From Lautropia sp. (GTDB lineage Bacteria; Pseudomonadota; Gammaproteobacteria; Burkholderiales; Burkholderiaceae_E), in contig JAUNLD010000033.1 of the NCBI GenBank assembly GCA_030532425.1, forward strand, positions 1-33,120: a stretch of DNA of 33,120 bases, in the 5' to 3' direction. The notes under the pieces are model-generated. The model was not told the origin of the DNA. It did no database searches and saw nothing but the letters and a program-made list of their open reading frames with translations. Below are positions 8,742-30,815 of this stretch, one piece after another (positions within the stretch are counted from its first letter, which is position 1; each line of letters begins with the position of its first letter). The position numbers and the translations under genes were made by a program.

Positions 8742-8753
8742 AACGCGGAGCGG

Positions 8754-8759
8754 ATATTA
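8754..8759 (-). promoter_or_regulatory. -10-like element of second tRNA-Arg
   Basis: TAATAT within GTGTTAATATCCG, 12 nt before the mature tRNA 5' end, matching the block before the other copy. Confidence 0.45.
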
Positions 8760-9068
8760 ACACGAGTTCTGCTTTCGTTGCCAGTGCCGCCCGATTTTTC
8801 ATGAAACATGGTTAATTGAGGCACACTGCGCTGCAGCTGCGCGGGATGGCGGCCGTGCGCCGGAGATCGTGGCCCTCAGCGTCGGCATCCCTGTCATCGT
8901 GCGGCGATTGCGTCGCCACCTTGTAACGTTCGTTGGCAGGCCTGCGCCATCACGCGTGGCTACGGTAGACTTCTATCCATCAAGCCGGACGCGGCAGGCG
9001 TGCGGCCGGCGGCACCCCTGGCCCGTGCCAGCGCACCGTTTTACCGTGAACAATCGAAGGAACGTGGT
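8760..9068. other. Non-coding spacer between tRNA-Arg and the DHDPS-fold gene
   Basis: No convincing gene. It must hold the upstream part of the tRNA promoter (minus strand) and the promoter of the plus-strand gene at 9069. A ribosome site AAGGA is visible at its end. No clear hexamer pair, riboswitch or terminator was recognised. Confidence 0.5.
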
Positions 9069-10055: not shown

Positions 10056-10157
10056 GTGCCCGGCGGGAGCCCGGGCGGCCCTGAAGCCTGCCACCCGATG
10101 ACGGCCCCGCCCACGATGGCGGCGCCGTGTCCCCCATCCCGCCCGGCCTGTGCCGCA

Positions 10158-11075: not shown

Positions 11076-11284
11076 CGACTCCCTGAAAGGATCAAGCTCA
11101 ACGGGGCCGGCCCAGGCCGGCATCGATGGGCGCCACGCGCGGGCGCCCCGGCCAATCTTAACCGGAGGCCGGCAGGCACCGGCGCCAAAGCCCTGGCCAC
11201 GCACATGCCACGGCGCCGCCCACGCTTTCTGGTACGCTTGGCGCCCTGTGTTCCCCTGCTGTGGCGGCCCCGGCCGCTTTTGCC

Positions 11285-12262: not shown

Positions 12263-13441
12263 TCAGGGCGCCAGCCCGAACTGCCCGTCAGGGTCGGCGA
12301 TCCGTGCCACCTCGATCCCGCTGATCGGGGGAATGTCGACCCCCGGCAGCCGGTTGAACCGTTCGACCATCGCCGCCGCCCACAGGCCGTTCCAGACGGT
12401 GCCCGCATGGCCGTCGCCAATCACCGCGTTGTAGGGTTCATCGCCCTGGGTGACGCTCACCGCGCGCTTGCCACCCAGCGACACGCGCTTGTAGGCCGGC
12501 TTGCCCGCCGCATCGCGGGCACCAAAATGCTGCCGGAAGAAGGCGCGGTCATCAAAGAATTCGACCCCTGCCGTGGCCTGCGCGATCTGTTGCAGCCGGC
12601 CGTCGTAGTGATCGAGCACGCGGGCAATCGCCGCCTGCTCGGCCGGATTCTGGAAACGGGCATGGATCGGAGGCCAGTCGACATTGTTCAGCACCCCCAC
12701 CAGGATGATGTTCAGTGACGGATGGCGGCTCTTGAGTGTCTTCACCGCCTCGGCCACGGCATCGGCACAGACCTGTGCCCTGGCCACGCCGGCCTCACCC
12801 CCGGCATCGGCAGCGAATGCTTCCAGATCCTCCCGCTTGCCCAGGTCGTTGATGCCGATGCGGATCACCACCACCGCCGGCTGGGCCTGCCAGCCCCTGG
12901 GGTCGCGCGCCATCTCATCCAGCAAGGCGGGCACCTGCCCGCTGCCCCGCGCATTCAGCGCGGAGCAGCCCGCCCCACTGATCGCAAAGTTGTAGCGGAA
13001 GTCTTCCTTGCGGTTGCGCAGCACGGTGCCCAGCATGTTGCGGCGCAGATAGGCGACCGCCCCGTTGCTGCCCACTTCACCAAACGGCCCCTGATCGATC
13101 TCGCGCGGGCGCAGCTGCGCCAGCACCTCGGTCCATTGCCAGGTGCTGGCCTGATGCTTGCCTCCGCGGGCCCGGGCCGTGCCGGCATGCAGTGACACCG
13201 CGTCATGAAAGGCGTGGCTGTCCGAATCCCCCAGCACCGCCAGCCGCATTTTCGGCCGCAGCGGCGCCTTCCCGCTGAATGACGACATCGCTTCTCCCCG
13301 CGGCCCCTCACTTCCCTGCACCGTTCCCCCGCTCACCGTGCCCTCCTGGGCCATCGCCATACTGGCACCTGCCCCCGAAAGCACGGCCAGCGATAACAGA
13401 AAGCGCCGGGCAATTTGTATCAATTGTTTAGCCGGCGTCAT
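12263..13441 (-). CDS. Exported SGNH/GDSL-family hydrolase
   Basis: About 392 residues with a signal peptide (basic MTPAKQLIQIARRF, hydrophobic LLSLAVLSGAGASMAMA, cleavage expected after AMA-Q). SGNH blocks are visible: block I in RLAVLGDSDSHAF with the nucleophile serine, block III in IRIGINDLG, and a late Asp/His pair in IGDGHAGTVWNGLWA, where the usual DxxH is compressed to DxH. The family covers esterases, lipases and polysaccharide deacetylases acting in the periplasm. The start is uncertain: ATG 13483 has a better ribosome site (CAGGTGG) and adds 14 residues before the signal peptide. It is divergent from the assembly-line genes with a short shared upstream gap. A role in processing the assembly-line product is possible but not shown. 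Confidence 0.8.
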   Translation of the reverse strand: MTPAKQLIQIARRFLLSLAVLSGAGASMAMAQEGTVSGGTVQGSEGPRGEAMSSFSGKAPLRPKMRLAVLGDSDSHAFHDAVSLHAGTARARGGKHQASTWQWTEVLAQLRPREIDQGPFGEVGSNGAVAYLRRNMLGTVLRNRKEDFRYNFAISGAGCSALNARGSGQVPALLDEMARDPRGWQAQPAVVVIRIGINDLGKREDLEAFAADAGGEAGVARAQVCADAVAEAVKTLKSRHPSLNIILVGVLNNVDWPPIHARFQNPAEQAAIARVLDHYDGRLQQIAQATAGVEFFDDRAFFRQHFGARDAAGKPAYKRVSLGGKRAVSVTQGDEPYNAVIGDGHAGTVWNGLWAAAMVERFNRLPGVDIPPISGIEVARIADPDGQFGLAP

Positions 13442-13573
13442 TGTCCGACCCCGTCGAGCATTTCCCTGTTTCCAATCTGCCATGCTAAAAATGCCACCTG
13501 CTCCATGTTCAGAACCGGTCGTTCTTCTTCCGGTTGCTTGTTCAAACGGATCGCCTACCCTGAAGCAGCAAAA

Positions 13574-16500
13574 ATGGCTGGGCGACCGCGCAGTCACGGC
13601 GTCGTGCCCGGCCTGCCGACCATCCCGCTGTCGAGAGGCGCCCTCCACGACCCCTTTCATCACGTCTTCCAGGTTTCAGTCAGCGTGGCCACCATCTCCA
13701 TCAAGCTTCCCGCCAACCTTGCCAACGTCCTCCGTCAGCGCCAGCTGGCCGGAGAATGCATCCTCGTGCCCTGGGTGGCGGCCTGGATGATGGCAGAGCA
13801 CCGCATCGGTGGCACGCCGCTGCCCGAAGGCATCACCAGCAGCCTCTGGCTGCTGGCCGACGCCAACCGGCGCTGTGGCGGCAACGGCAACGCCAGCCTG
13901 GAAAGCCGCCAGCCCCGCATCATCGAGATGCGCGGCGAAAGCGCGCTGGCCCTGCTCAGCAGCCATCCCATCGGCCAGAAGCCTGCTGCACCGCACGAAC
14001 CCACGCCGGACGATCATGCCAGCGGCCACGGCGGGATGCCAGTGACAGGGGGTAACAATGCGGACATTTACCTGCAGGTCAATGCGCAAAAGGTAAACAT
14101 CTCCTCACCGTCGGGCCGATATGACGAGATCGCCCTGCACGGCTGGCGCCGTTTCCTGCGCCACCTGCTGATCGAGCTGCTGCTGATCGACTCGCGCCCA
14201 CTGGCCGACATCTCCAACCTGGCCACCAGCATCCAGCCGCTGGTGCTCGACACCTGGGCAGGCTGCGCCGACGGCGATGCCCGCCTGCCACACGCCACCG
14301 TCATCGACCGCTTCGACCTGCAATGCCAGCGCACGCCGCAGGCAGTGGCCGTACGCATGCCCGGCATCCTGGACGAGGGCTGGAGCTATCTGGCCCTGCG
14401 CGAGATCTCGCTCAAGTACGCGGCCCGCCTGCAGGCACACGACATCAATGCCGGTGACCACGTGGCGATGCTGCTGTCGCGCCGCCCTGAAAGTGTCGCC
14501 CTGCTGCTTGCCATCCTGCGTCTGAACGCCGTCTACGTGCCGATCGACCCGGCCAGCCCCGCCCAGCGGATGACGCTGATGCTGGCCGACAGCAAGCCCC
14601 GGCTGCTGCTGGTCGATCGCCAGACCCAGGCCGAGCCCCGTCAGCTGGCAGCGGCCGCCGGGATCCCGCTCTGGGACATCGATGCCGATCCGGAAGACGA
14701 TCCCGGCACACTGCCGGGCGTGACCGTGCCCCAGCTCTCCGAACAGGTCTCGGAACAGACGCTGGTGCGCTCGCGCCGTTCGGCCCGGCACGCAGCCTAC
14801 GTGATGTACACCTCCGGCTCGACCGGTACGCCCAAGGGGGTCGTCATCCCGCACCGTGCCATCGTCCGTCTGGTCTACCGGCAGTATTTCGCCCCCCTGG
14901 GTCCGAAGGTGGTGATGCTGCACGCCGCGCCGCTGGCCTTCGATGCCTCGACCATCGAGATCTGGGGGCCCCTGCTCAATGGCGGTACCGTCGTCATCCA
15001 TCCCGAAGCGGTGCCCACCGGCAAGGGGCTGGCCGAGGTCATCCGGCAGGAACAGGTCAACACCGCCTGGCTGACGGCCGCACTGTTCAACCGCCTGGTC
15101 GATGAGGACCCGGCCTGCCTGACGGGACTGCGCACACTGATGACCGGTGGCGAAGCCCTGTCGCCCCGACACGTGCGCAAGGTGCTTCAGGCCCAGCCCG
15201 AACTGCGCCTCATCAACGGCTACGGCCCCACCGAAACCACTACCTTCGCCGTCACCGGCCCGGTCAGTGAGCAGGATCTCGACACACACGCGAATGTGCC
15301 GCTGGGCCGTCCCATCAACTGGACCTACGTCCGCATCCTGACCCCGCAGGGTGAACCGACCCCCCCCGGACTGCCCGGCGAGCTGCACATCGGCGGCCCC
15401 GGCCTGGCGCTGGGCTACCTGAACCGCCCCGAGGCCACCGCCGAACGCTTCATTCCCGATCCCTTCGGCCACAGCCACGAACTGCTCTATCGCAGCGGTG
15501 ACGCCACCCGCTGGCTGGACGATGGCCGCATCGACTACCTGGGCCGCCTGGACGGGCAGCTCAAGATCCGCGGCTTTCGCATCGAGCCGGGCGAGATCGA
15601 AGCCGTGCTGGCGGCATGCCCGGCCGTCGCCAGTGCCGCCATCACCGACGAGGTACCGGCCAATGGCGAACGCCGGCTGGTCGCCTGGCTGGTGGGCGAA
15701 GCGGGCCAGCCCCGCCCCGACGACGAAAGCCTGCGCGCGCACTGCCGTCCGCGCCTGCCCGGCTACATGATGCCGGCCCGTTTCGTCTGGGTACCGGCAC
15801 TGCCGATCACCCTCAACGGCAAGCTTGACCGGCGGGCATTGCAAGATCTTGAAAACACGGCGTTAACAGAAGACACGGTGCTTACAGACGGTGACGTAAC
15901 AGCACCGGCAACCAATTTTGCAAATTCGTCGCAGAAGATACACGCCGATCGTGAAAAAACCCCCACACTTGTGGGGATGCAACCGGACCTCCGCCTGCTT
16001 CAGCAGCAGGTGATCGCCCTCCTCAAACCGATCCTGGCCATCGACCGCCTGAACCCGACCGACAACTTCTTCGAGGTCGGCGGTTCGTCGCTGCTGGCCG
16101 CCCAGGCACTGGAGGCACTCACCCAACGCTTTGGCGAGGTCATCGGCATCGAGGACTTCTTCGGCAACCCCACCGCCGCCGCCTTTGCCGCACGCATCGC
16201 CCAGGGCATGACGGCGGCCACACCATCTCATCCGCCCGCCGGGGGCCGCGCCGATGATGCGGGCAGCCTTCAGCCGGGCGCGCCGCTGCCCGGTACCCAC
16301 AGTGCTGCCAGCATGGCCAGCGCTGCCAGCATGGCCACCGCCGCCCGCACGGCCACGACACCAGCCGGGATGCCTGCTGAAGAAGCCGCGCGCCCGCCCC
16401 TGCCCCCTGCCCCCCCATCGCAAGCGGGTGCGGCAAGCGCGCCGGTCCGTGCCCCCTGGCCACAGCCCAGGGGCGTACCGCTGCCGACAGCGGCCCGGAC

Positions 16501-19500
16501 GGCGCCCCCCGCGGCAGCGGCAGGCACCCCGGACGGGACGACGGCTGCGTCGGCCCAGGCCTGCGGGCAGCCCGCGCACCCGGACAGCGGGATCACACCA
16601 TCCGTCCCGGCCCGGCCGGACACAACGGCTGACAGCGCCGCTCAGCCAGCGGCAGCAGCCGATGCGGGCGACGATCCCCGCGCCATCGCCATCATCGGCA
16701 TGGCCGGACGCTTTCCTGGCGCCGCCAGCATCGACGAGCTCTGGCAGAACCTGATCGACGGCAAGGACGGCATCCGCCACTTCAGGCCTGACGAACTCGA
16801 CCCCTCACTGCCCGCCTCGCTCACCGGCGACCCGGACTACGTGCCGGCACGTGGCGTGCTCGACGACGTGGGTCGCTTCGATGCTGCCTTCTTCGGCATC
16901 GGCCCGCGCGAGGCCGAGCTGATGGACCCACAGCAGCGCATCTTCCTGGAGCTGGCCTGGCAGTGCCTGGAACACGCCGGCCATGCCCCCCGGGACGGCG
17001 TGCGCAACATCGGCGTCTTTGCCGGCATGTACAACCCCACCTACTTCCAGCGTCAGCTGCAATACCACCCGGACAAGATCGCCGCGCTGGGCGAGTTTCA
17101 GGTGATGCTGGCCAACGAGAAGGACTACATCGCCACCCGGACCGCCAACCGCCTGAACCTGCAGGGGCCGGCCATCTCGGTGCATACCGCCTGCTCGACC
17201 TCACTGGTGGCCATCGCCGAGGCCGTCACCGCGCTGCGCGCCGGCCAGTGCCAGATGGCGCTGGCCGGGGGCGTGGCCATCACCGCCCCGGTCAACAGCG
17301 GCTACCGCCACGAGGCCGGCTCGATGCTCTCGCCCGACGGGCGCACCCGCAGCTTCGATGCCGATGCCCAGGGCACGGTGTTCTCCGATGGAGCCGCCGT
17401 GGTGCTGCTCAAGCGCCTGGCCGATGCCCGGCGCGACGGTGACACCGTCCATGCGCTGATCCGCGGCGTCGGCATCAACAACGATGGCGCCGAGAAGGCC
17501 AGCTTCACGGCACCCAGCGTCGATGGACAGCACGCCGTCATCCGCGCCGCCCTCGATGACGCCGGCCTGCCGGCCCGCAGCATCCAGCATGTCGAGGCCC
17601 ACGGCACCGCCACACCCATGGGTGATCCGGTCGAAGTGGCCGCCATCACCCGTGCCTGGCGCGAGGAAACCGCCGACACCGGTTTCGCCGTGCTCAGTTC
17701 GCTCAAGAGCTACCTCGGCCATACCGTGATCGCGGCAGGCGCGGCCAGCACCATCAAGACGGTGATGGCCTTGCAGCACCAGCTGATCCCCGGCACCCTG
17801 CACTACCGCGCGCCCAACCCCGGCCTGCGCCTGGAGCAGAGTCCGTTCCGCGTCACGGCCGATCACACCCCCTGGCCCATGCAGGATGGCCAGCCGCGCC
17901 GCGCCGGCATCAGTGCCTTTGGTGTCGGGGGTACCAACGCCCACATCATCATCGAGGAGGCCCCGGCCGACTGCCGGGCACCCGGTGCTGCCCCGGCCGA
18001 TGCGCCGGCACTCGAGGCCGGCCAGCACGAGCGGCTTCTGTACCTGCCGCTCAGCGCGCGCACCGACACGGCCCTCGCTACCCAGCGTCAGCAACTGGCG
18101 GCCCACCTGCGCCAGCACCCCGTCAGCCTGCGCGACGTGAGCTTCACGCTGCACCACGGGCGCAGCCCCCTGCCCGAGCGTCAGTGCGTGCTGGCCAGCA
18201 CGCGCGAGGAAGCCGTCAACGCACTGGCCTCGGCCCACAGCCCCGACCGGCTCACCGGCAACACCCGCCAGGCCAGCCGCCTGGCCTGGCTGTTCCCCGG
18301 CCAGGGGGCGCAGTATGCCGGCATGGGGCGCGCGCTCTATCGCCAGTCACCCGCCTTCGCCGCCGCCTTCGACGAGGCCGCATCCGCCATCGGCCCCATC
18401 AGCCTGCCGGCTGCCGCCGACGGCCTGCCCCTCAGCGGCGACCTGCGTGCCCTGGTCTTCGATGGCAGCGATGCCGATCTGGCCCAGACCGGACTGACCC
18501 AGCCCGCCCTCTTTGCGCTCGAATACGCGCTGGCCCGGCACTGGCAGTCGCTGGGGGTCGAACCCGAGCTGCTGATCGGCCACAGTCTGGGCGAATTTGC
18601 CGCCGCCGTCATCGCCGGTGTCATGTCGGCTGCCGATGCGGCCCGGCTGGTGGCAACCCGTGGCCGGCTGATTCAGGCACTCCCCGCCGGCGAGATGCTC
18701 GCCGTGCGTCAGCCGGCCGGTGACGTGGCCCCGCGCCTGCCCGCCACGCTGTCGGTGGCCACCATCAATGCCGACGATGCCTGCGTGGTGGCCGGCCCGC
18801 CTGACGCGATCAGCGCCTTTGCCGCGACCCTGTCGGCCGAAGGGATCGCCCATCAGGTACTCAGGACCTCGCACGCCTTCCATTCGGCGATGATGGACGA
18901 CGCGGTTGCCCCCTTCGAGGCCGCCGTCTCGATGGTGCCGCTGTCGGCCCCGCGCATCCCGATCATCTCCGGACGCACCGGTCAGCCACTCAGCGATGCC
19001 GAAGCCACCGACCCGCATTACTGGTCGGCCCAGCTGCGCGACACCGTACGCTTTGCCGATGCGGCCCGGCTTGCCGTGGCCGAAACCGGTACCGTCTTTC
19101 TCGAGGTGGGCCCCGGTCAGGTCCTGGGCAACCTGGTGCGCCGCGCCGCCCGCGGCACGGTCTGCATTCCCAGCCTGGGCAACCAGCCCGATCAGGAAGT
19201 GCGCACCATCGCCCGGGCACGTGCCCAGCTCTGGTGCCTCGACCGTGCCTCTCTTGCCGATGCCGTCCCCGCACAGGGCCGGCGCATCGCCCTGCCCACC
19301 TACCCCTTCGAGGGCAAGACCTACTGGCTGTCGGCTCCGCCCGCCCAGGCCAGCGCTGCCACGCCATTGCCGCTGCCCCTGCAGGCTGCCAATGCGCCGG
19401 TACTCGATGCCGCCGGCAGTCCGCTGGCCGCCGCCGCCCAGGCCCTGGCCTCGTTGCGGGCCCTGGTGCAGGCCCGGGCCGTCGGTCAGTCGCACGACCC

Positions 19501-21928
19501 GGGCACGGCCATGACGAGCCTGGCCGGCAGCCCCGGGGCGGCCGACACACTGCGCCTGGTCAGTGCCCCGGAGGCTGCCCCCCAGGCCGGCGCCCTGGCA
19601 CAGGCAGGCGGCGCAACCCCGGCCAGCGGCACGGTGAGCGCCCCCCTGGCCGGCACCGCCAGCGCTGTGGCCGCCCCGGCCGGCACGCCCGCCCATTCTT
19701 CTCAATCTCAAGACAATCCGTCGCACACCATGAACGCACCTTCCCGACTAGACAGACTCCACACCGAACTGGCGGAGACCATCGACGGGGTCTGCGGCAT
19801 CGCCATCGGCACCGACGAGCGCCAGGCCGCCTTCGTCGACCTCGGCCTCGATTCCCTGCTGCTCACCCAGCTGGCATTGCAGGTCAAGCGCCACTTCGGC
19901 ACGCCGATCACCTTCCGCCAGCTGATGACCGATCTGCCCAGCCCGGCTGCACTGGTCGAGCACCTGGACAAGACCCTGCCGGCCGATGCCTTCGCCTCTT
20001 CCCAGCCCGCACCGGTCCAGCCTGCCACCGTCACGCCGCAGGCCAATGGCCTGGCAGCCCCGCTGACCGCCCCGGCGATGCCCGCCGTGACGGCAGGGGC
20101 AGGTACGGCGATGCCGGACAGCATGCAGCAGCTCATCAACCAGCAACTGCAACTGATGGAAGCGCAGCTGCGCCTGCTCACCGGCCAGATGCCGCTCAAC
20201 GCCCCGCCGGCCATGGCCCTGCCGGCCGCCTCCGCAACGCCGGCAACCCCCGGCAGCGCAGCGCCGGCCGCCCCGGCCACAGCGGCCGTCGAAGCCCCCC
20301 CGGCCCCTGCCACGGCCAACGGTGCCGACCGGGAAGAACGCGCCACCGACGATCCGAAGAAAGCCTTCGGCGCCCTGGCCCGCATCTATCGCCAGCAACA
20401 GGCCGACAAGCTCACACCCCGCCAGGAAAGCCGTCTGGATGCCTTCATCAAGCGCTACGTCGACAAGACCCGCAAGTCGCGCGACTTCACCCAGCAGCAT
20501 CGCCCCCACTCGGCCGATCCGCGTGTGGTCAACGGCTTCAAGCCGCGCCTGAAGGAGATGATCTACCAGATCGTCATCGAACGGTCGAAAGGCTCGCACC
20601 TCTGGGATCTGGACGGCAACGAGTACGTGGATGCGCTCAACGGCTTCGGCATGAGCCTGTTCGGCTGGCAGCCCGATTTCGTCGTCGAGGCGGTGAAGAA
20701 GCAGATGGATCTGGGCTATGACATCGGCCCCCAGCACCCGCTCTCGGGTCCCGTCACCGAGCTGGTCTGCGAGATGACCGGCTTCGACCGGGCCGCCCTG
20801 TGCAACACCGGCTCCGAAGCCGTGATGGGCACGGTGCGCATCGCCCGCACCGTCACCGGACGTGACCGCATCGCCGTCTTCTCGGGCGCCTACCACGGCA
20901 TCTTCGACGAAGTGATCGTGCGTCTGGGCGCCCGTGGCAAGGCCATGCCGGCCGCGCCCGGCATCATGCCCAACACCGCCGAAAACGTCGTCATCCTCGA
21001 ATACGGCGATCCGGCTGCCCTGGAATGGGTGAAAGCCAATGCCGACACGCTGGCCGCCGTGCTGGTCGAGCCGGTGCAGAGCCGGCGCCCCGAACTGCAA
21101 CCGCGCGAATTCCTGCACGAGCTGCGCCGCATCACCGAAGAGACCGGCTCGCTGCTGATCTTCGACGAGGTCGTCACCGGCTTCCGTACCGGCCCCGGTG
21201 GTGCCCAGGCCCATTTCGACATCCGCGCCGACCTGGCCAGCTACGGCAAGGTCATCGGCGGAGGCTTCCCGATCGGCATCATCGCCGGCAAGCGCGAATA
21301 CATGGACGCGCTCGATGGCGGTGCCTGGCAGTACGGCGACGATTCGATTCCCACCGTCGGCGTCACCTACTTTGCCGGCACCTTCGTGCGTCACCCGCTG
21401 GCGCTGGCGGCCTGCCATGCCGTGCTGACCCACCTGAAGGAAGCAGGACCCGAGCTGCAGCAGAAGCTCGGCGCAACCACCGCCGGCCTTGCGCAGACAC
21501 TCAACACCTTCTGCGAGGAACACGGTGCGCCGATCCGCATCAACCACTTCGCCTCGGTCTGGCGCGTGGTCTTCACCGAGGACCACCCGTACCAGGACCT
21601 GCTGTTCGCGATGATGCGCAACCGCGGCATCCACATCCTCGACAACTTCCCCTGCTTCATGACCACGGCACACACCCCGGAAGACATCGAGGCAATCTGC
21701 AAGGCCTTCTGCGAATCGGTGCTGGAACTGCAGGCCGACGGCTTCCTGCCGAAACCGGCCAAGACCGTCCGCGCCGGCAACGGCAGCAGCGACGGCAAGA
21801 AAACCGACCCGCGCAAGCCGCCCGTACCCGGTGCGCGCCTCGGCCGCGATGCCGACGGCAAGGCCGCCTGGTTCGTCGCCGATCCCGAGCGCCCGGGTGC
21901 CTACATCCAACTGAAAACCAGCGAGTGA
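13574..21928 (+). CDS. Hybrid NRPS-PKS with integrated aminotransferase: half-C, A, PCP, KS, AT, ACP, AMT
   Basis: About 2784 residues. By nucleotide: C-terminal half of a condensation domain (13685-14235, no HHxxxDG); A1 (14290-15850; YTSGSTGTPKG, GYGPTETT, NGKLDRRAL); PCP1 (serine S839 in GGSSL); Ala/Pro linker (16210-16680); KS (16680-17960; C1207 in HTACSTSL, His in EAHGTA and LGHT); AT (18280-19330; GHSLGE, malonyl-type HAFH); ACP (S2094 in LGLDSL); PLP aminotransferase of the glutamate-1-semialdehyde type (20510-21740; K2559 in SYGKVIGGG); tail AWFVADPERPGAYIQL. The A1 pocket reads D-A-I-W-M-G-G-T-F, close to valine codes. With no KR or DH, the AMT should convert the beta-keto thioester to a beta-amine, as in MycA/McyE-type systems. 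Start ATG 13574 is chosen because third-position GC becomes high from there; GTG 13685 is an alternative. The next gene follows after 16 nt. Confidence 0.9.
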   Translation: MAGRPRSHGVVPGLPTIPLSRGALHDPFHHVFQVSVSVATISIKLPANLANVLRQRQLAGECILVPWVAAWMMAEHRIGGTPLPEGITSSLWLLADANRRCGGNGNASLESRQPRIIEMRGESALALLSSHPIGQKPAAPHEPTPDDHASGHGGMPVTGGNNADIYLQVNAQKVNISSPSGRYDEIALHGWRRFLRHLLIELLLIDSRPLADISNLATSIQPLVLDTWAGCADGDARLPHATVIDRFDLQCQRTPQAVAVRMPGILDEGWSYLALREISLKYAARLQAHDINAGDHVAMLLSRRPESVALLLAILRLNAVYVPIDPASPAQRMTLMLADSKPRLLLVDRQTQAEPRQLAAAAGIPLWDIDADPEDDPGTLPGVTVPQLSEQVSEQTLVRSRRSARHAAYVMYTSGSTGTPKGVVIPHRAIVRLVYRQYFAPLGPKVVMLHAAPLAFDASTIEIWGPLLNGGTVVIHPEAVPTGKGLAEVIRQEQVNTAWLTAALFNRLVDEDPACLTGLRTLMTGGEALSPRHVRKVLQAQPELRLINGYGPTETTTFAVTGPVSEQDLDTHANVPLGRPINWTYVRILTPQGEPTPPGLPGELHIGGPGLALGYLNRPEATAERFIPDPFGHSHELLYRSGDATRWLDDGRIDYLGRLDGQLKIRGFRIEPGEIEAVLAACPAVASAAITDEVPANGERRLVAWLVGEAGQPRPDDESLRAHCRPRLPGYMMPARFVWVPALPITLNGKLDRRALQDLENTALTEDTVLTDGDVTAPATNFANSSQKIHADREKTPTLVGMQPDLRLLQQQVIALLKPILAIDRLNPTDNFFEVGGSSLLAAQALEALTQRFGEVIGIEDFFGNPTAAAFAARIAQGMTAATPSHPPAGGRADDAGSLQPGAPLPGTHSAASMASAASMATAARTATTPAGMPAEEAARPPLPPAPPSQAGAASAPVRAPWPQPRGVPLPTAARTAPPAAAAGTPDGTTAASAQACGQPAHPDSGITPSVPARPDTTADSAAQPAAAADAGDDPRAIAIIGMAGRFPGAASIDELWQNLIDGKDGIRHFRPDELDPSLPASLTGDPDYVPARGVLDDVGRFDAAFFGIGPREAELMDPQQRIFLELAWQCLEHAGHAPRDGVRNIGVFAGMYNPTYFQRQLQYHPDKIAALGEFQVMLANEKDYIATRTANRLNLQGPAISVHTACSTSLVAIAEAVTALRAGQCQMALAGGVAITAPVNSGYRHEAGSMLSPDGRTRSFDADAQGTVFSDGAAVVLLKRLADARRDGDTVHALIRGVGINNDGAEKASFTAPSVDGQHAVIRAALDDAGLPARSIQHVEAHGTATPMGDPVEVAAITRAWREETADTGFAVLSSLKSYLGHTVIAAGAASTIKTVMALQHQLIPGTLHYRAPNPGLRLEQSPFRVTADHTPWPMQDGQPRRAGISAFGVGGTNAHIIIEEAPADCRAPGAAPADAPALEAGQHERLLYLPLSARTDTALATQRQQLAAHLRQHPVSLRDVSFTLHHGRSPLPERQCVLASTREEAVNALASAHSPDRLTGNTRQASRLAWLFPGQGAQYAGMGRALYRQSPAFAAAFDEAASAIGPISLPAAADGLPLSGDLRALVFDGSDADLAQTGLTQPALFALEYALARHWQSLGVEPELLIGHSLGEFAAAVIAGVMSAADAARLVATRGRLIQALPAGEMLAVRQPAGDVAPRLPATLSVATINADDACVVAGPPDAISAFAATLSAEGIAHQVLRTSHAFHSAMMDDAVAPFEAAVSMVPLSAPRIPIISGRTGQPLSDAEATDPHYWSAQLRDTVRFADAARLAVAETGTVFLEVGPGQVLGNLVRRAARGTVCIPSLGNQPDQEVRTIARARAQLWCLDRASLADAVPAQGRRIALPTYPFEGKTYWLSAPPAQASAATPLPLPLQAANAPVLDAAGSPLAAAAQALASLRALVQARAVGQSHDPGTAMTSLAGSPGAADTLRLVSAPEAAPQAGALAQAGGATPASGTVSAPLAGTASAVAAPAGTPAHSSQSQDNPSHTMNAPSRLDRLHTELAETIDGVCGIAIGTDERQAAFVDLGLDSLLLTQLALQVKRHFGTPITFRQLMTDLPSPAALVEHLDKTLPADAFASSQPAPVQPATVTPQANGLAAPLTAPAMPAVTAGAGTAMPDSMQQLINQQLQLMEAQLRLLTGQMPLNAPPAMALPAASATPATPGSAAPAAPATAAVEAPPAPATANGADREERATDDPKKAFGALARIYRQQQADKLTPRQESRLDAFIKRYVDKTRKSRDFTQQHRPHSADPRVVNGFKPRLKEMIYQIVIERSKGSHLWDLDGNEYVDALNGFGMSLFGWQPDFVVEAVKKQMDLGYDIGPQHPLSGPVTELVCEMTGFDRAALCNTGSEAVMGTVRIARTVTGRDRIAVFSGAYHGIFDEVIVRLGARGKAMPAAPGIMPNTAENVVILEYGDPAALEWVKANADTLAAVLVEPVQSRRPELQPREFLHELRRITEETGSLLIFDEVVTGFRTGPGGAQAHFDIRADLASYGKVIGGGFPIGIIAGKREYMDALDGGAWQYGDDSIPTVGVTYFAGTFVRHPLALAACHAVLTHLKEAGPELQQKLGATTAGLAQTLNTFCEEHGAPIRINHFASVWRVVFTEDHPYQDLLFAMMRNRGIHILDNFPCFMTTAHTPEDIEAICKAFCESVLELQADGFLPKPAKTVRAGNGSSDGKKTDPRKPPVPGARLGRDADGKAAWFVADPERPGAYIQLKTSE

Positions 21929-21944
21929 TTCACAAGGCAAGAGA

Positions 21945-24900
21945 ATGGAAAACGGTTCCTCCGGCTCATCCCAGCTACCTCCCGGTGTCGTCGGCGTCGC
22001 CGTCGATTTCGACCCCTTCGACTCCGGTCACGCCGGCTCGCTGATCGAGCAGATCATCCCGCCCACCGAAGCCCAGCGCGAAGTCTGGCTGGCTGCCCGG
22101 CTGGGCCGGGAAGCCTCGCTGGCCTACAACGAGGCCGTCGAACTGGATCTGCGCGGCCCGCTCGACGAGGCCCGCCTCGATCAGCTGCGCGCAGCCTGCC
22201 AGGCGGTCTTCGAGGCCCATCCATCCCTGCGTGCGGTATTCTCGACCGACGGGAGCGAGATGCAGGTGCTGCCGGTCGACATGACCAGCCTGCCCTTCGA
22301 GCTGCTCGACCTGCGTACCCTGGATGAGGCCGCCCGCACGCGCCGCCTGCACGACTGGCGGCAGCAGGTGGTCAACGCCCCCTTCGACCTGACACTCGGC
22401 CCGCTGTTTCGTGCCCACCTGCTGTGGCTGGCCGATGACCATGCCGTGCTGCTGCTGTCGGCCCATCACCTGGTCTGCGACGGTTACTCCTTCGGTCGCG
22501 TGCTGACCGATTTCTGCCGTGCCTGTCGTGGCGAAGTCTTGACCCCGAGCGATTACGGCCAGTACGCCGAGGAAGAAGCCGAATGGCTTGCCGGCGATGA
22601 AGCCGCTGCCAACGTCCGCTACTGGACCGAGCAGTACGCCCGCGACATTCCGGTGCTCGACCTGCCCACCGACCATCCCCGTCCGGCCCGCCGGCGCGTC
22701 GATGCCGCCCGTGTCGACCATCTGCTTGATGCCGGGACATTCTCACGACTGCAGGCCACGGCCAGACAGCTGCGCATCAGCCTGTTCTCGTTGCTGCTGG
22801 GCGGCTTCGAGCTGCTGCTCTCGCGTCTGACCGGCAACAGCGAGGTCGTCGTCGGCGTGCCGGCGGCCGGCCAGATCGCAGCCGACCAGCCCGATGTCGT
22901 CGGCCACTGCGTCAACCTGCTGCCGGTGCGTGGCCAGGTCGATGCCGCGGCCAGCACCCGCGACTGGCTGACGGCGGTGCAGTCCCGGCTGCTCGATGCC
23001 TTCGATCACCAGCGCTTCACCTTCGGCACGCTGCTCACCCACCTGCCCCTGCGGCGCGATCCGTCGCGGCTGCCCCTGGTACCGGTGATGTTCAACCTCG
23101 ACCAGCGTCTTGATGCCGCCGCGCTGCAGATTCCCGGCCTGCGTGTCGGCGTCGAGCCGGTGGCGCGCAGCTTCGAGAACTTCGAGCTGTTCGTCAACCT
23201 CACGCCACTCGACACGGGTCTGCGCATCGAGTGCCAGTACAGTACCGCGCTGTTCGACGCCACCACCATCCATCACTGGCTGCAGAGTCTCGACGCCCTG
23301 CTGGTCGGCATCGCCGACGATGTCGAGCGTCCCGTCGGCCAGCAGCCAGCCCTCGGCCCGTCCCAGCAGGCCCTGCTGCGGTCGTGGAACGACACCGTCA
23401 ACGAACACGGCCTGGGCAAGACCCCCCTGCAACTGCTGGACCGCATCGCCCGCGCGCAGCCCCGCAAGATCGCGCTGGCCGATGCCCGCCACAAGATCAG
23501 CTACCAGCAGCTGATCGATGCCAGCGACGCCCTGGCCCGGCGCCTGCAGGAACGCGGCATCGGCCCCGATGCCCTGGTCGGCCTGTGTGTCGAGCGTGGG
23601 GTGGCGATGGTCATCGCCCAGTGGGCGATCTGGCGCACCGGGGCCGCCTACGTTCCGCTCGATCCGGGTTTCCCGCAGGAACGCCTGGCCTACATGGCCG
23701 AGGATGCACGCCTTGCCCTGATCGTCGCCGATGACGCCACCGTCGAGGTCTGCCAGGGCTTTGCATGGCCGGCCGAACGGATGCTGACGATCCAGGCCGA
23801 CGAGCTGGCCGCCACACCCGCCACCGACGGCGGGAAGCCGCCGCTGGACCTGTCGAAGCCGGAAGCGGCGGCCTACGTCATCTACACCTCCGGTTCCACC
23901 GGCAAGCCCAAGGGCGTGTCGGTACCGCACCGTGCCACCGCCAACCTGCTGCTGTCGATGCAGCGCAAGCCCGGCATCCGCGCCGCCGACCGCCTGCTGG
24001 CCGTCACCACGCTGTCCTTCGACATCGCCGTGCTCGAACTGCTGACCCCGCTGATCGCCGGTGGTCACGTCTTCGTCGCCGACCGCGACGACGCCATCGA
24101 CGGTCACCGCCTGGCCACCGTGCTCGCCGAACACGACATCAACGTCATGCAGGCCACCCCCGGCACCTGGCGTCTGCTGCTGGGCGCCGGCTGGCAACCC
24201 GCCGAGGGTTTCCGGGCCCTGGTGGGGGGCGAGCCCCTGCCCCAGGACCTGGCCGATGCGCTGTCTGCACTGCCGCTGAGCCTGTGGAACATGTACGGCC
24301 CCACCGAAACCACCGTCTGGTCCACCTGCTGGCAGGTGCCGCCCGGTGCCCACCAGATCCGCATCGGCGGGCCGATCGCCAACACCCGCATCCACGTGCG
24401 CGATGCCGCCGGTCAGGATGTCCCCTTCGGCGCCGCCGGCGAGATCGTCATCAGTGGCGAGGGCGTGGCCATCGGCTACCTGGGCCGCCCCGAACTGACG
24501 GCCGAGCGCTTCGTGCCAGACCCCGAATCCCCGGGACGCAGCGCCTACCGCACCGGTGACAGCGGCCGCTGGCGCAACGACGGCACGCTCGAACACCTCG
24601 GTCGTCTCGACCATCAGGTCAAGGTCCGTGGTTACCGCATCGAACTGGGCGAGATCGAGGCCGTGCTGGCCAGTTTTGCCGGTATCGCCCAGGTCGTCAC
24701 CATCGTCCGCGAGGACACGCCGGGCGACCAGCGGCTGGTCGCCTATCTGGTCGGCGATGATCCGGTGGCCCAGCCACGCGAGGCCGATCGTGAAGAAGCG
24801 AAAGCCATGCGCGCCCACCTGCGTCAGCAGCTGCCTGATTATATGGTACCGCAGCATTTCGTCTGGCTGCCGGCCTTCGGGCTGCTGCCCAATGGCAAGA

Positions 24901-27296
24901 TCGACCGCAAGCAGCTGCCACGCCCCGACCAGCGGCTGGCAGGCACTGGCGCACCCGCCACCGAAACGGCACCGGCCAGCGAATCGCTGCAGGCCGTGGC
25001 CCGGCTGATGGCCGAGCATCTGCGGCTGCCACAGGTCGATGCCGATGACGACTTCTTCGCCCTCGGCGGCCACTCGCTGCTGGCGGCCCAGTTCCTGATG
25101 GCGCTGGGCAAGGAACAGCACCGGCAGATCCCGCTGGCCCTGATCTTCGAGGCGCCGACCGCCCGCCAGATCGATGCCTGGCTGAAGGAAGACCATGCCG
25201 GCGCCGATGGCCAGCAGACCATCGCCCGCCGCACCGACACCCGCAGCGCCCCGCTGTCGGTGATGCAGCAGCGCCTGTACTTCCTGGAATCACTCAATCC
25301 GGGCACCCCGGTCTACAACACGCCCTCGGCACACCGCCTGTTCGGCCCACTCGACGAGGCCGCCTTCCAGCGCGCCTTCGACCGCCTGATCGAGCGCCAG
25401 CCGATCCTGCGTACCTGCATCGACACCGATGCACGCGGCATGCCGGTGCAGCGCATCGCCGACAGCCTGCACCTGCCGCTCTTCCCGGCCGAAGACCTCA
25501 GCCAGCTCAGGGGCCAGGAGCAGGAGGCAGCCTTGGCCAAGGCCCTGAAGTCGCTGGTCGAGGAACCGATTCCGCTGCATGGCACCCCGCTGTTCCGCAC
25601 CCGGATGTTCCGGCTCGGCGACGAGCGCCACGTCTGGTTCTTCATGCCCCATCACATCATCTGGGACGGCTGGTCCTTCGACCTGCTCTACCAGGAAATG
25701 GCGGCACTGTACCGCCACCAGCTCGACGGTGCGCAGGGTGACGAGGGGCTGCCGCCACTGGGCATCGACTACGGTGACTTCGCCCTCTGGCACAACCAGT
25801 TCCTGCAAAGCGGCACCATCCAGAAGCAGGTCGATCACTGGCTTGCCCGCATCGACCGCAACATGGCGCCGCTGGAGCTGCCCGCCGACCGGCCACGTCC
25901 GCCACGCATGAGTGGCCGCGGCGGCACCGAATGGGTACAGCTGCCGGCCTCGCTGGTGGCCAGCGTCCGCGAGCAGGCGATGGACCGGCAGTCGACACTG
26001 TTCATGTCGCTGCTGGGCACCTGGGCACTGCTGCTGCACGGCCTGTCGGGGCAGGATGCCCTCGCCATTGGCACACCGGTGCGGGGGCGCGAGCTGCCCG
26101 AGCTGGAACCGGTCATGGGCTTTTTCGTCAACGCGCTGCCGCTGGGCTTCCGTTTCGGCCCGCAGGACACCGTGCAGGACCTGCTCACCCGGCTGCGCCA
26201 GACCATGGTCGATGCCTTCGGCCATGCCGACGTCCCGGTCGACCGCATCCTGCAGGCGCTGGGCCCCAGCCGTGACGAGTCACGGCCACCGCTGTGGCAG
26301 GCCTTCTTCTCGTTCCAGGAAGCCTCGGATCGCCAGCTGACCTGGGGCAATCTTGAAGACAAGCCGCTGTTTCTGCTGCAACCGGGTACGGCGGAAGACG
26401 TCGGTCTGTGGTTCCTCGGCCATGGCAACCAGCTGGTCGGCGGCCTGCAGTACAACGTCGACATCTTCGATGCGCTGCGCATCCGCCGGCTGGGCGAGTG
26501 CTACCAGCTGCTGCTGACCCGCTGGAGCGAGAGCACGCCCGAGACGCCTCTGGCCTCGCTGCTGGCCGACATCCCGGCGCTGTTCGAGCACGGTGCCCAG
26601 CCCGTACAGCCCGAACCCGGCCGCACAGCCGGTGCCGCCGCCGAGGCAGCCGGTGATGGCGCGCAGCCCGCATCGTCCGCCGGGCAGGCAGCGGTGGAGG
26701 CGACAGCGTCTGCCACCGGCGCATCCACCGCCGCCGGGGCCACCGCCCCCGCTGCATCCGGCACGGCAGCCGCCGCCAGCCCGAGTCCCGGGACAGCCCA
26801 TGACGCATCGGCCACCCCGGCCAGCAGCGCCGCCACAGGCGTTGCGGCAGGTGCAGCAGCTGCCGGCGACAGTCCTGCCGCCCCTGCCGCGGCCAATGAT
26901 GACGCGGCCACCGCCACGGGTGAAGCCGGGACAGCTGGCAGGGACCTGAGCGCGGCCGACAGTGATGCCGCCGCCACCGATGGCGGATCGATGCAGCAGA
27001 TCCTCAGTGCGGTCTGGGCCGACCTGCTGGGGACCGACGACATCCGTGCCGATGACAACTTCTTCGACCTGGGCGGACACTCGATGCTGGTGATGCAGGC
27101 CCTGGCGCAGATGCAGGAGCGCACCGGCCGTCGCGTCAACCCGCGCCGCTTCATCTTCGAGACACTGGCACAGGTGGCCCGCGCCTACGAGGAGGCCGCC
27201 GACGAGCAGCCGGCGCCGGCCCCCGGCCCTGCCGCCAAGGGAAGCAGCGGCCTCGTGTCGCGGATGTTTGGCGCCTTCAACAAGCGCCGCGGCTGA
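21945..27296 (+). CDS. Nonribosomal peptide synthetase: C, A, PCP, C, PCP
   Basis: 1783 residues. The N-terminus (VAVDFDPF, then PPTEAQREVWLAA) is the segment that normally links an aminotransferase to a C domain inside one polypeptide. C1 has HHLVCDG with H175. A2 spans about 23400-24920 (YTSGSTGKPKG from residue 647, MYGPTETT, NGKIDRKQL), and its pocket D-I-L-Q-V-G-M-V-W matches glycine codes. PCP2 serine is S1044 in GGHSL. C2 has HHIIWDG with H1237. Then comes a ~135-residue Ala/Thr/Ser-rich linker in place of an A domain, PCP3 (S1713 in GGHSM) and a basic tail ending FNKRRG. No thioesterase, reductase or terminal C is present. The arrangement recalls yersiniabactin HMWP2, where one A domain loads two carriers. 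The start has AAGG at a good distance. Confidence 0.92.
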   Translation: MENGSSGSSQLPPGVVGVAVDFDPFDSGHAGSLIEQIIPPTEAQREVWLAARLGREASLAYNEAVELDLRGPLDEARLDQLRAACQAVFEAHPSLRAVFSTDGSEMQVLPVDMTSLPFELLDLRTLDEAARTRRLHDWRQQVVNAPFDLTLGPLFRAHLLWLADDHAVLLLSAHHLVCDGYSFGRVLTDFCRACRGEVLTPSDYGQYAEEEAEWLAGDEAAANVRYWTEQYARDIPVLDLPTDHPRPARRRVDAARVDHLLDAGTFSRLQATARQLRISLFSLLLGGFELLLSRLTGNSEVVVGVPAAGQIAADQPDVVGHCVNLLPVRGQVDAAASTRDWLTAVQSRLLDAFDHQRFTFGTLLTHLPLRRDPSRLPLVPVMFNLDQRLDAAALQIPGLRVGVEPVARSFENFELFVNLTPLDTGLRIECQYSTALFDATTIHHWLQSLDALLVGIADDVERPVGQQPALGPSQQALLRSWNDTVNEHGLGKTPLQLLDRIARAQPRKIALADARHKISYQQLIDASDALARRLQERGIGPDALVGLCVERGVAMVIAQWAIWRTGAAYVPLDPGFPQERLAYMAEDARLALIVADDATVEVCQGFAWPAERMLTIQADELAATPATDGGKPPLDLSKPEAAAYVIYTSGSTGKPKGVSVPHRATANLLLSMQRKPGIRAADRLLAVTTLSFDIAVLELLTPLIAGGHVFVADRDDAIDGHRLATVLAEHDINVMQATPGTWRLLLGAGWQPAEGFRALVGGEPLPQDLADALSALPLSLWNMYGPTETTVWSTCWQVPPGAHQIRIGGPIANTRIHVRDAAGQDVPFGAAGEIVISGEGVAIGYLGRPELTAERFVPDPESPGRSAYRTGDSGRWRNDGTLEHLGRLDHQVKVRGYRIELGEIEAVLASFAGIAQVVTIVREDTPGDQRLVAYLVGDDPVAQPREADREEAKAMRAHLRQQLPDYMVPQHFVWLPAFGLLPNGKIDRKQLPRPDQRLAGTGAPATETAPASESLQAVARLMAEHLRLPQVDADDDFFALGGHSLLAAQFLMALGKEQHRQIPLALIFEAPTARQIDAWLKEDHAGADGQQTIARRTDTRSAPLSVMQQRLYFLESLNPGTPVYNTPSAHRLFGPLDEAAFQRAFDRLIERQPILRTCIDTDARGMPVQRIADSLHLPLFPAEDLSQLRGQEQEAALAKALKSLVEEPIPLHGTPLFRTRMFRLGDERHVWFFMPHHIIWDGWSFDLLYQEMAALYRHQLDGAQGDEGLPPLGIDYGDFALWHNQFLQSGTIQKQVDHWLARIDRNMAPLELPADRPRPPRMSGRGGTEWVQLPASLVASVREQAMDRQSTLFMSLLGTWALLLHGLSGQDALAIGTPVRGRELPELEPVMGFFVNALPLGFRFGPQDTVQDLLTRLRQTMVDAFGHADVPVDRILQALGPSRDESRPPLWQAFFSFQEASDRQLTWGNLEDKPLFLLQPGTAEDVGLWFLGHGNQLVGGLQYNVDIFDALRIRRLGECYQLLLTRWSESTPETPLASLLADIPALFEHGAQPVQPEPGRTAGAAAEAAGDGAQPASSAGQAAVEATASATGASTAAGATAPAASGTAAAASPSPGTAHDASATPASSAATGVAAGAAAAGDSPAAPAAANDDAATATGEAGTAGRDLSAADSDAAATDGGSMQQILSAVWADLLGTDDIRADDNFFDLGGHSMLVMQALAQMQERTGRRVNPRRFIFETLAQVARAYEEAADEQPAPAPGPAAKGSSGLVSRMFGAFNKRRG

Positions 27297-27349
27297 GTGG
27301 CCGGTACGGGCGGCCCCCAGGGGCCTCCCTTCAGCCCTTCCCCGTGACC

Positions 27350-27375
27350 ACGGCGCCCTGCAGGCGCCGTCTTTC
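27350..27375 (+). terminator. Terminator-like hairpin after the assembly-line genes
   Basis: An 8-bp perfect stem (ACGGCGCC / GGCGCCGT) with a 5-nt loop, then CTTTC, 54 nt after the synthetase stop. The T-run is short, so termination may be partial. It suggests that the PPTase begins a new transcription unit. Confidence 0.55.
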
Positions 27376-27478
27376 ATGGGAGGGCCCACACCGCCCCGCT
27401 ACATCAGCGGTTAACATAAAAGGCATTCGGCAGACAGGCCGCAGGCCTGCCGCCTTTTCCCGGAGACCCTGTTCACGC

Positions 27479-28273
27479 ATGCCCTTCCCGCCGCCCGTGC
27501 CTGTCGACTGCCATCGCATCGACCTCGACCTGCCCCGTCCCGCCGGCAGCGATGCCTGGCTTTCGACGACGGAACAGGCGCGTGCGGCGCGTTTTCGCTT
27601 TACGCACCTGCAAGAGCGCTATCGCGCCACCCGCGTGGCCCTGCGTGCCCTGCTCGGCCAGCGTCTGGGTATCGCCCCACAGGCCGTATCCTTCGTACGC
27701 GGCCAGCACGGCAAGCCCCGGCTCGATCCCGCCCACGGCAGCCCGCTGCACTTCAACCTCAGCCACAGCGAGGGCGTGGCCTGGATCGCCATCGGCGCAT
27801 GCCCGCTGGGCATCGATCTGGAGCTGAACACCCGCCCGGTGCGCCTGCTCGATTCGCTGCCCGAGCGCGTCGCCACCCCGGCCGAACTGGCGACCCTGCG
27901 CGCCCTGCCACCCGCGCTGCTGCAAGCGGCCTTCCTGCTGATGTGGACCCGCAAGGAGGCCGCGCTCAAGGCCTGGGGGCTGGGCATCAGCAGCATGGGA
28001 TCACTGGCCAGCCTCGACACCTGCCTGCCCGATCCCGACAACCTGCCGGCGCTGCTCGGTACGCCCCTCCCGACCATGCTGCCCCCGGCACGCATCGAGC
28101 CCCCCGGGCAAGGCGACGCCGCCGGCCAGCCGCCACTGCATGTCCACAGCCATTGCCTTGAGTCCGAGATACTGAGCGTGACCTCGCCTGAAGACATCCT
28201 GCCCACACTGCATCGGCCCCATCCCCCCTTCCTGGCGCCGCCTCCGGCGGCGGTCCGGCATGACCGCCGCTGA
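27479..28273 (+). CDS. Sfp-type 4'-phosphopantetheinyl transferase
   Basis: 264 residues. Converts apo carrier proteins to holo form by moving phosphopantetheine from CoA to a serine. Visible signatures: HGKPRL, FNLSHSEG, GIDLEL with the Mg2+ ligands D113 and E115, and WTRKEAALKAWG with W156, K159 and E160. The two-part length is typical of Sfp/EntD enzymes rather than the ~120-residue AcpS. It lies 182 nt downstream of the synthetases, which carry three PCPs and one ACP, so these are the likely substrates. ATG 27479 is chosen; the nearest purine-rich site, CGGAGA, is rather far upstream, so the start is not certain. The TctC-like gene follows 18 nt later. Confidence 0.93.
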   Translation: MPFPPPVPVDCHRIDLDLPRPAGSDAWLSTTEQARAARFRFTHLQERYRATRVALRALLGQRLGIAPQAVSFVRGQHGKPRLDPAHGSPLHFNLSHSEGVAWIAIGACPLGIDLELNTRPVRLLDSLPERVATPAELATLRALPPALLQAAFLLMWTRKEAALKAWGLGISSMGSLASLDTCLPDPDNLPALLGTPLPTMLPPARIEPPGQGDAAGQPPLHVHSHCLESEILSVTSPEDILPTLHRPHPPFLAPPPAAVRHDRR

Positions 28274-28291: not shown

Positions 28292-29392
28292 GTGTCTGCA
28301 TCCCCCATCCGACGCCCGCCCCTGTGCCCCGATACGCCGGCCACGCACCCCTCGCACCAGCGCCGCCGGCACCTGCTGCAAGGCCTGCTGGCCCTGGGTC
28401 CCGGCCTGCTGTTGCCCAGCGTTCCGGCCGCTGCCCCGCTGCACCCCGCCGCGCAGGCATCCTCATCCTCCGCCAGCCCCCACGGTCATTGGCCCCAGAA
28501 GGCCGTGCGCCTGATCGTCCCCACCGCCCCCGGCACCCCGCCCGACCGCATCGCCCGCGCGGTCGCCGAACCCATGGGACGGCTGCTGGGCCACAGTGTC
28601 ATCCCCGAAAACCGCCCCGGCAATCACGGCAACCTCGCGGCCACCCTGGTGGCCAGGGCCCCCGCCGACGGCTACACGCTGTTGCTGGGCACCGAGACCA
28701 TGCCCGGCATCAATGCGCTGCTGCCGGGCCGCACGCCCTTCGATCCGGGCGAGCAGCTACTGGGCATCAACCGCATCGCCACCGCCCCCTTCCTGCTGGT
28801 GGTGGGTACCCATGCCCCCTTTCGCTCGCTGCGCGCACTGCTGCACCATGCCCGCAGGCAGCCCCTGGCTTATGGTTGTCACGGCACCGCCTCGGCCAGT
28901 CAGCTGGCTGTCGAATGGTTGCGCCAGAAAACCCGGGCCCGGCATCTGGGCTTCAACGACTTTTCCAGCCCGCAACGGCTCATCCGCGCCGTGGCCGAGG
29001 GCGAGATCTCACTGGCCTGCCTGCCGGCCCGGCACCTCACGCTGGTGCAGGAGGAAGAGCGCGTGCGGATCATCGCGATCACCCGCAGCCATGCCGATCC
29101 GCTGGTGCCGGGGGCTCCCGGCATCCAGCACCTCGACCGTTCGCCGCCTCATGAGTTTCTCGACTGGACGGCCCTGTTCGCGCCGCGCCGGACGCCCCGC
29201 GCCCTGATCGGACGTCTTGACGAGGTGCTGCGCCAGGCACTGCAGGGCCCGCAACTGGCGGCCAGCCTCAGCCCTCTCGGCTTCACGCCGGCACCCGCGG
29301 CCTCACCCGAGCAGTTCCAGCAGGATTTCACCGGAACGCTTGCCCGCAACCGGGCACTGCTCGGCGCGCTCGACCTTCGCCCTGCGTCCTGA
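28292..29392 (+). CDS. Bug/TctC-family extracytoplasmic solute-binding protein
   Basis: 366 residues. The N-terminus has a long Pro-rich lead, then RRRHLLQGLLALGPGLLL and an Ala-rich cleavage region, resembling a twin-arginine-type signal. The mature start (WPQKAVRLIVPTAPGTPPDRIAR) is the Bug/TctC hallmark, followed by ENRPGNHGNLAATLVARAPADGYTLLLG. These periplasmic proteins bind carboxylates or other small anions for tripartite tricarboxylate transporters, but in Burkholderiales most are orphans; no TctA/TctB is seen here. GTG 28292 is chosen because GGAGA lies about 8 nt upstream. The stop is 3 nt from the bioM ATG, so translation is probably coupled. The ligand is unknown; the context suggests a biotin-related or assembly-line-related molecule (inference). 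Confidence 0.88.
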   Translation: MSASPIRRPPLCPDTPATHPSHQRRRHLLQGLLALGPGLLLPSVPAAAPLHPAAQASSSSASPHGHWPQKAVRLIVPTAPGTPPDRIARAVAEPMGRLLGHSVIPENRPGNHGNLAATLVARAPADGYTLLLGTETMPGINALLPGRTPFDPGEQLLGINRIATAPFLLVVGTHAPFRSLRALLHHARRQPLAYGCHGTASASQLAVEWLRQKTRARHLGFNDFSSPQRLIRAVAEGEISLACLPARHLTLVQEEERVRIIAITRSHADPLVPGAPGIQHLDRSPPHEFLDWTALFAPRRTPRALIGRLDEVLRQALQGPQLAASLSPLGFTPAPAASPEQFQQDFTGTLARNRALLGALDLRPAS

Positions 29393-29395
29393 GCG

Positions 29396-30133: not shown

Positions 30134-30135
30134 CC

Positions 30136-30729: not shown

Positions 30730-30815
30730 ATGCTGGCACGACGGCCCGCATTTTTACCTGGCACCGCGCTTCGATTATCCTGTCGGACCTGTTCCCTTCA
30801 GCCAAAGACAGCCCC

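Follow-up and report, generated by a model that had tools for sequence, protein, structure and literature searches.

The window, a 33,120-base stretch that is the whole of contig C113 of Lautropia sp. (genome 3.1 Mb, 88.8% complete), comes from an oral genus and carries on its plus strand two long open frames in the ORF listing, 13415-21928 for protein P0001 and 21945-27296 for protein P0002. Pfam matches at E ≤ 0.001 (for P0001, AMP-binding, ketoacyl-synt, Acyl_transf_1, Aminotran_3 and two PP-binding stretches; for P0002, two Condensation, one AMP-binding and two PP-binding stretches), read together with motifs, give the order C-lobe remnant-A1-PCP1-KS-AT-ACP-AMT followed by C1-A2-PCP2-C2-PCP3. 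This confirms the architecture given in a preliminary description of the DNA, (half-C)-A-PCP-KS-AT-ACP-AMT and then C-A-PCP-C-PCP. Neither protein matched a KR, DH or thioesterase Pfam family at the same threshold, in agreement with the earlier statement that KR and DH are absent. The start of P0001 is probably GTG 13685, the equivalent of which is the earliest start codon assigned by script in five of six Lautropia homologues; 13574 is uncertain. The features of the locus are these:

12263 to 13441, minus strand: SGNH/GDSL hydrolase, the divergent neighbour, start ATG 13441 (Pfam, on a longer ORF)
13685 to 14284, plus strand: condensation-domain remnant, C-terminal lobe only, no HHxxxDG (hhalign against the C-lobe)
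14312 to 15823, plus strand: adenylation domain A1, code DAIWMGGTF (Pfam; code alignment)
16004 to 16198, plus strand: PCP1, Ser892 of P0001 (Pfam; residue check)
16679 to 17806, plus strand: ketosynthase, C1260, H1396 and H1436 (Pfam; residue check)
18287 to 19153, plus strand: acyltransferase, GHSLGE and HAFH (Pfam; motifs)
19742 to 19984, plus strand: ACP, Ser2147, limits approximate (Pfam; motifs)
20411 to 21754, plus strand: PLP aminotransferase (AMT) of the MycA AMT family, Asp2584 and Lys2612 (6kfm match, E 1.1e-127)
22053 to 23384, plus strand: condensation domain C1, HHLVCDG, limits approximate (Pfam; motifs)
23439 to 24899, plus strand: adenylation domain A2, code DILQLGMVW (Pfam; code alignment)
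24972 to 25214, plus strand: PCP2, limits approximate (Pfam; motifs)
25245 to 26324, plus strand: condensation domain C2, HHIIWDG, in a module that lacks an A domain (Pfam; motifs)
27003 to 27182, plus strand: PCP3, the last carrier, with no thioesterase behind it (Pfam; residue check)
27344 to 28273, plus strand: 4'-phosphopantetheinyl transferase (PPTase), behind P0002 (Pfam ACPS)

The N-terminus of the SGNH hydrolase is signal-peptide-like as judged by eye, and its profile found no PDB relative at E ≤ 0.01. Farther upstream (9000-12253) lie DHDPS-like and AspA/AstE-like genes, and homologues of the AspA-like gene are confined to Lautropia loci within the examined set (the best 80 of 174 relatives). 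A pyruvate dehydrogenase E1-like protein is encoded on the minus strand at 1708-4425, and the long plus-strand ORF at 721-4461 is therefore probably antisense noise. Beyond the PPTase (28292-33118) there are genes for a TctC-like receptor, an ABC ATPase, a BioY-type component and an AMP-binding acyl ligase-like protein, the last running off the contig end; these look like an unrelated group.

The N-terminal remnant and conservation among relatives

A search for HHxxxDG in the N-terminal remnant of the window P0001 found no such motif. A profile built from 55 N-termini aligned by hhalign to columns 190-437 of the 440 columns of the C domains of the clusters (probability 97.0, E 9.6e-11), and the reversed profile used as a control reached a probability of 0.1. 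This alignment identifies the N-terminal region as a genuine remnant of a C domain, corresponding to its C-terminal lobe. The N-terminus extends 150-300 residues ahead of A1 in 55 of the 61 first proteins from the best 80 of 174 relatives; the other six have later ORF starts (L031, L048, L066 and L076) or longer N-termini (L055 and L060). The relative L060 has HHLVSD in this region, and L023 has HHEAAD, which looks like chance. Because only the C-lobe remnant of a C domain lies upstream, A1 is most likely a true chain starter acting on a free amino acid.

The scan for relatives gave 174 stretches that encode them, of which the best 80 were taken as loci and examined. They belong to the Burkholderiales (Variovorax, Xenophilus, Thiomonas, Ideonella and others) and the Xanthomonadales (Dyella, Dokdonella and a Luteibacter MAG), and although many are truncated, whatever each retains follows the same domain order. 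All 61 first proteins that could be recovered, the window included, keep the catalytic residues of KS, AT and PCP1, and 60 of 61 keep those of ACP and AMT (the PLP Lys and the Asp), the one miss being L022. Among the second proteins, all 58 plus-strand sequences keep the residues of C1, A2, PCP2 and C2, and all but the truncated L053 keep the PCP3 serine (57 of 58); the genes were chosen by script, and ten of the 68 rows in that table are antisense ORFs, whereas the 58 plus-strand rows are sound. Within the genus, the AMT domain is found in seven of eight other genomes at 84-89% identity (the exception, G004, is 81% complete and in 720 contigs), and the nearest AMT sequences to that of the window are from Lautropia. 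Since active-site residues are kept in 60-61 of the 61 first proteins, the line is real far beyond chance. Chance or misread domains were considered and rejected, with Pfam families and active-site residues in place.

In L022 (L. dentalis KCOM 2505, 2631-11339) the frame of the first synthetase is split between ACP and AMT, with the frame-3 ORF ending at 9161 and AMT in frame 2, through either an assembly error or a real change. Such a split, like the half-C, the missing A3 and the missing TE, might be expected of a decaying lipopeptide line that makes nothing, the absent parts being damage. However, 55 of the 61 N-termini join one profile, and this, together with the intact catalytic residues and the identity of AMT across Lautropia, makes decay very improbable.

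Codes, aminotransferase and predicted product

Adenylation codes were read by alignment to motif anchors, and of 115 A domains three received no assignment. The A1 code, DAIWMGGTF, is one that we take to be Val-like, with deviations at two positions from what is presumably the usual Val code, and the A2 code, DILQLGMVW, we likewise take to be Gly-like. In A1 the alpha-amino Asp is present (FDAS) and the code is of the amino-acid type, which is not the pattern of a fatty-acyl starter. Among 58 first A domains from the best 80 of 174 relatives, 41 are Val-like (DA?W?GGTF), nine Pro-like (DVQF[MI]AQVV), three Thr-like (DFWNIGMV[HF]) and five of other kinds; 24 of 51 second A domains from the same set are of the Gly type DILQLGMVW, and the remainder vary. 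The HAFH motif of the AT is assumed to indicate the malonyl type. The motifs and codes thus sustain the preliminary assignment of an HAFH-type AT, a Val-like A1 and a Gly-like A2.

The AMT, an Aminotran_3 domain of GSA type directly behind the ACP, has the MycA AMT (6kfm) as its best match in a phmmer search of the PDB (429.9 bits, E 1.1e-127), with GSA aminomutases far behind at 192.7 bits at best, and it keeps the Lys and Asp; the proposed in-line PLP aminotransferase is borne out to that extent. According to PMC3870968, Gln is the amine donor of the MycA AMT and an ACP-bound beta-ketothioester its acceptor. The same reaction applied to this line would yield a beta,gamma-diamino thioester, which presupposes that the AMT tolerates the neighbouring amine, as we suppose by analogy.

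From the architecture, its conservation, the codes and the gene neighbours we infer each of the reactions that follow. A1 would load a Val-like amino acid onto PCP1 as the chain starter, KS-AT would extend the chain by one malonyl unit, and the MycA-type AMT would convert the ACP-bound gamma-amino-beta-keto thioester to a beta,gamma-diamino thioester, to which C1-A2-PCP2 would append Gly. Our best prediction of the product is a beta,gamma-diamino acyl-Gly, namely a 3,4-diamino-5-methylhexanoyl-Gly thioester, because the domain order, the HAFH AT, the Val-like A1, the Gly-like A2 and the MycA-type AMT are all supported. Beta-keto-gamma-amino thioesters are prone to ring closure, and this general chemistry would favour a small-ring product instead, formed either by cyclization of the gamma-amino-beta-keto intermediate or by closure of the diaminoacyl chain to a 4-amino-gamma-lactam. 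In all 58 plus-strand homologues of P0002, however, both C domains retain the HHxxxDG His and Asp, which points to onward peptide bond formation; we therefore regard a small ring as improbable.

The last module, module 4, appears to have lost an A domain of its own. A complete A3 is present in module 4 of L040, L052 and L089, with the code DILQLGMVW in all three. The second proteins of L054 and L061 have three AMP-binding stretches and just one A domain of the TSGSTG type, a pattern that we read as a degenerate A3, and those of the window and L097 have a single AMP-binding stretch. C2-PCP3, its own Gly-coded A domain lost, would probably append a second Gly loaded by A2, or it may merely move the chain; Gly-Gly is plausible because module 4 of three relatives still has an A domain with a Gly code.

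Release partners and neighbouring genes

Loci with at least 3.5 kb behind C2 were taken as scorable, which left 67 of the 80 (L032, with no C2 hit, and 12 loci that were too short were dropped). Among these 67, from the best 80 of 174 relatives, an alpha/beta hydrolase that we call hyd1 is present in 52, hyd2 in 51, a PPTase homologue in 45, a TIGR04325-type methyltransferase in 11, and an SGNH homologue and a cupin-like gene in 10 each; six have no hyd1, hyd2 or SGNH nearby. SGNH and the hydrolases occur together solely in L052 among the 67, and in L115 outside that set. The cupin-like gene lies upstream of the synthetase in L040, L044, L045, L049, L054 and L061, which are relatives from the Xanthomonadales and Thiomonas; that of L061 is Cupin_8/JmjC and possibly a hydroxylase.

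The sequence of hyd1 is similar to those of alpha/beta hydrolases, and strands alternate with helices in the model predicted for it (mean pLDDT 80.4). The nucleophile motif of hyd1 has Cys in 40 of 40 sequences, and the corresponding position of hyd2 is Arg in 25 of 27 sequences and Gly in the other two, counts that include three hyd1 and two hyd2 copies from Lautropia that are unlinked to the synthetases. The Cys nucleophile would suit acyl transfer. The only models matched by hyd1 and hyd2 were TIGR03100 and TIGR03101; true membership of these families (XrtA hydrolases 1 and 2) was rejected, with 58 bits against a cut-off of 168.45 and 91.4 against 202.75. No homologue of either was found among the window ORFs scanned. 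The same genome does encode an adjacent hyd2-hyd1 pair, with Arg and Cys at the nucleophile position, on contig C101 (L112:11791-13682), where it sits between Wzc-like genes and beside wecB, and the pair is possibly an enzyme-pseudoenzyme pair of polysaccharide systems in general. Release from PCP3 would fall to a partner enzyme, and for most relatives the probable candidate is the nearby Cys-nucleophile hyd1 together with the nucleophile-less hyd2. The explanation that best accounts for the whole, to which we assign a probability of about 0.6, is a TE-less hybrid line with a diamino acyl-glycine released in trans.

The acceptor is harder to assign. Using polysaccharide query genes, six of which were chosen from loci where they had already been noticed, we found at least one such gene in the 10 kb flanks of 20 of the 67 scorable loci (best 80 of 174 relatives), from several lineages, and none within 10 kb in the other 47. 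The 20 fall to 19 if L054 is left out, which is linked solely through its own asparagine synthase/XrtA-amidotransferase-like gene. The genes include Wza- and Wzz-like genes in 12 Variovorax, an XrtA chain-length homologue in five loci and an XrtA kinase homologue in four, among others; no polysaccharide gene was found among the window ORFs scanned. Twelve of the 20 linked loci form one Variovorax clade. On an AMT tree of 81 rows, in which loci with short flanks were scored as unlinked, the polysaccharide label requires eight changes, against 18.1 in shuffles, and well supported branches force at least seven, so that the linkage is not a single event.

In V. boronicumulans PgBe293 (L062/L120) the synthetases are followed by hyd2, hyd1, a Poly_export gene (Wza-type), a Wzc-type kinase gene, a GDP-fucose synthase-like gene (below cut-off), a WcaI-family glycosyltransferase gene and GMP_PMI; two intervening genes of L120 had no family match, and the locus cannot be called complete. 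Another Variovorax (L121) has a WbaP-like sugar transferase too. A search of six records for PF00534 glycosyltransferases found them for five, L097, L062, L091, L045 and L040 (the sixth being L038), in each case 3-10 kb past the downstream end of the locus and on the strand of the cluster. L030, L038, L044 and L045 have homologues of XrtA chain-length and tyrosine-kinase genes within 10 kb, with TIGR03007 over cut-off in L044 and L045 and TIGR03018 in L038, and the L030 kinase just below; on a rough estimate, if there is one XrtA chain-length gene in every 4 Mb, a random gene would have one within 10 kb in about 0.5% of cases. The Lautropia genome itself has an XrtA chain-length gene on contig C51. 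Across 31 relatives, TIGR03007 exceeds its cut-off in nine of nine genomes with the line versus one of 22 others, a comparison weakened by eight of the nine being from one genus. Among 399 genomes of the order, 12 have an AMT match at E ≤ 1e-75 and 108 have TIGR03007 over cut-off, with an overlap of nine of the 12, which is weak since only two genera account for the AMT matches at E ≤ 1e-200. The three AMT-matching genomes without TIGR03007 (G249, G268 and G307) are distant, at 40-47% identity, and the match in G307 belongs to a multi-module line of another kind.

An RND (ACR_tran) exporter gene adjoins 17 of the 67 scorable loci (best 80 of 174 relatives), downstream of the synthetases and on the opposite strand, and none of the 17 is among the 20 polysaccharide-linked loci. 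It is possible, at somewhat less than even odds, that the product is a free, secreted diamino acyl-Gly(-Gly) serving as a metal binder, signal or antibiotic, cut off by the hydrolases or SGNH and exported through RND transporters in some Variovorax, with polysaccharide proximity being incidental. The 47 loci with no scored polysaccharide gene, the concentration of 12 linked loci in one clade, the RND neighbours and the variation of starter codes among relatives, as in diversifying natural products, all favour such a molecule. The supported changes of linkage on the AMT tree, at least seven in number, and the hydrolase kin in polysaccharide loci of Lautropia itself speak against it, and the RND genes may be mere neighbours because they are on the opposite strand and restricted to one part of Variovorax and its kin. 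The alternative that we put forward tentatively, and which as a complete statement is rather unlikely, is that amino-acid-derived (Val, Pro or Thr by code) vicinal diamino acid-glycine units are covalent cationic decorations of capsule or exopolysaccharide, attached by an acyltransferase that has a Cys nucleophile and acts with a pseudoenzyme partner, in a widespread class of which Lautropia is one carrier. Gene proximity does not demonstrate chemistry, and as to the destination of the chain, a free exported product is nearly as good a reading as a polysaccharide acceptor.

Comparison with known systems

The preliminary description suggested a layout without precedent, which is too strong. As a layout it has been in print since 2013: Table 2 of the survey by Milano et al. 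(PMC3870968) lists A-CP-KS-AT-CP-PLP1 for Pedobacter heparinus C6XWU5, with a predicted Nrp-Mal-Gly-Pk and no known product, and gives similar cores for Thiorhodococcus G2E5C9 and Salinisphaera F7QBN5. The first-protein layout of these lines is the same as that of P0001, a likeness of domain order, and the accessible text gives no product or polysaccharide context for them. No characterized product of such a line was found in the literature searched, nor were papers on Lautropia clusters or on such lines in polysaccharide loci; most subscription papers lie outside that search, and a characterized product may be described elsewhere. The preliminary description does not mention the loss of A3 from module 4 and the possible second glycine that goes with it, the varied starter codes among relatives, the lack of a release domain, the hydrolase partners, or the polysaccharide and exporter genes near the line in relatives. 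What is new here is the recurrence of the line in Burkholderiales and Xanthomonadales, its hyd1/hyd2 partners and its polysaccharide or RND neighbours.

If the proposed chemistry is correct, the line would provide an enzymatic route to beta,gamma-diamino acids, which are amine-rich building blocks, and an aminotransferase that acts beside an existing amine. If the polysaccharide link holds, modular synthetases would be tied to bacterial surface sugars, a pairing not found in the literature searched. What merits testing is the release in trans and the polysaccharide context. The XrtA system offers one point of comparison, its hydrolases 1 and 2 (TIGR03100 and TIGR03101) being matched by hyd1 and hyd2, although below the curated cut-offs, and in contrast to the XrtA hydrolases hyd2 has no nucleophile. 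Another likeness, in domain arrangement and in the best PDB matches of the AMT (6kfm and 6kfu), is to MycA of mycosubtilin, in which an ACP is likewise followed by a GSA-aminomutase-like AMT and then a C domain. MycA starts from a fatty acid, whereas here an adenylated amino acid would start the chain, and the carbon to be aminated would adjoin an existing amine.
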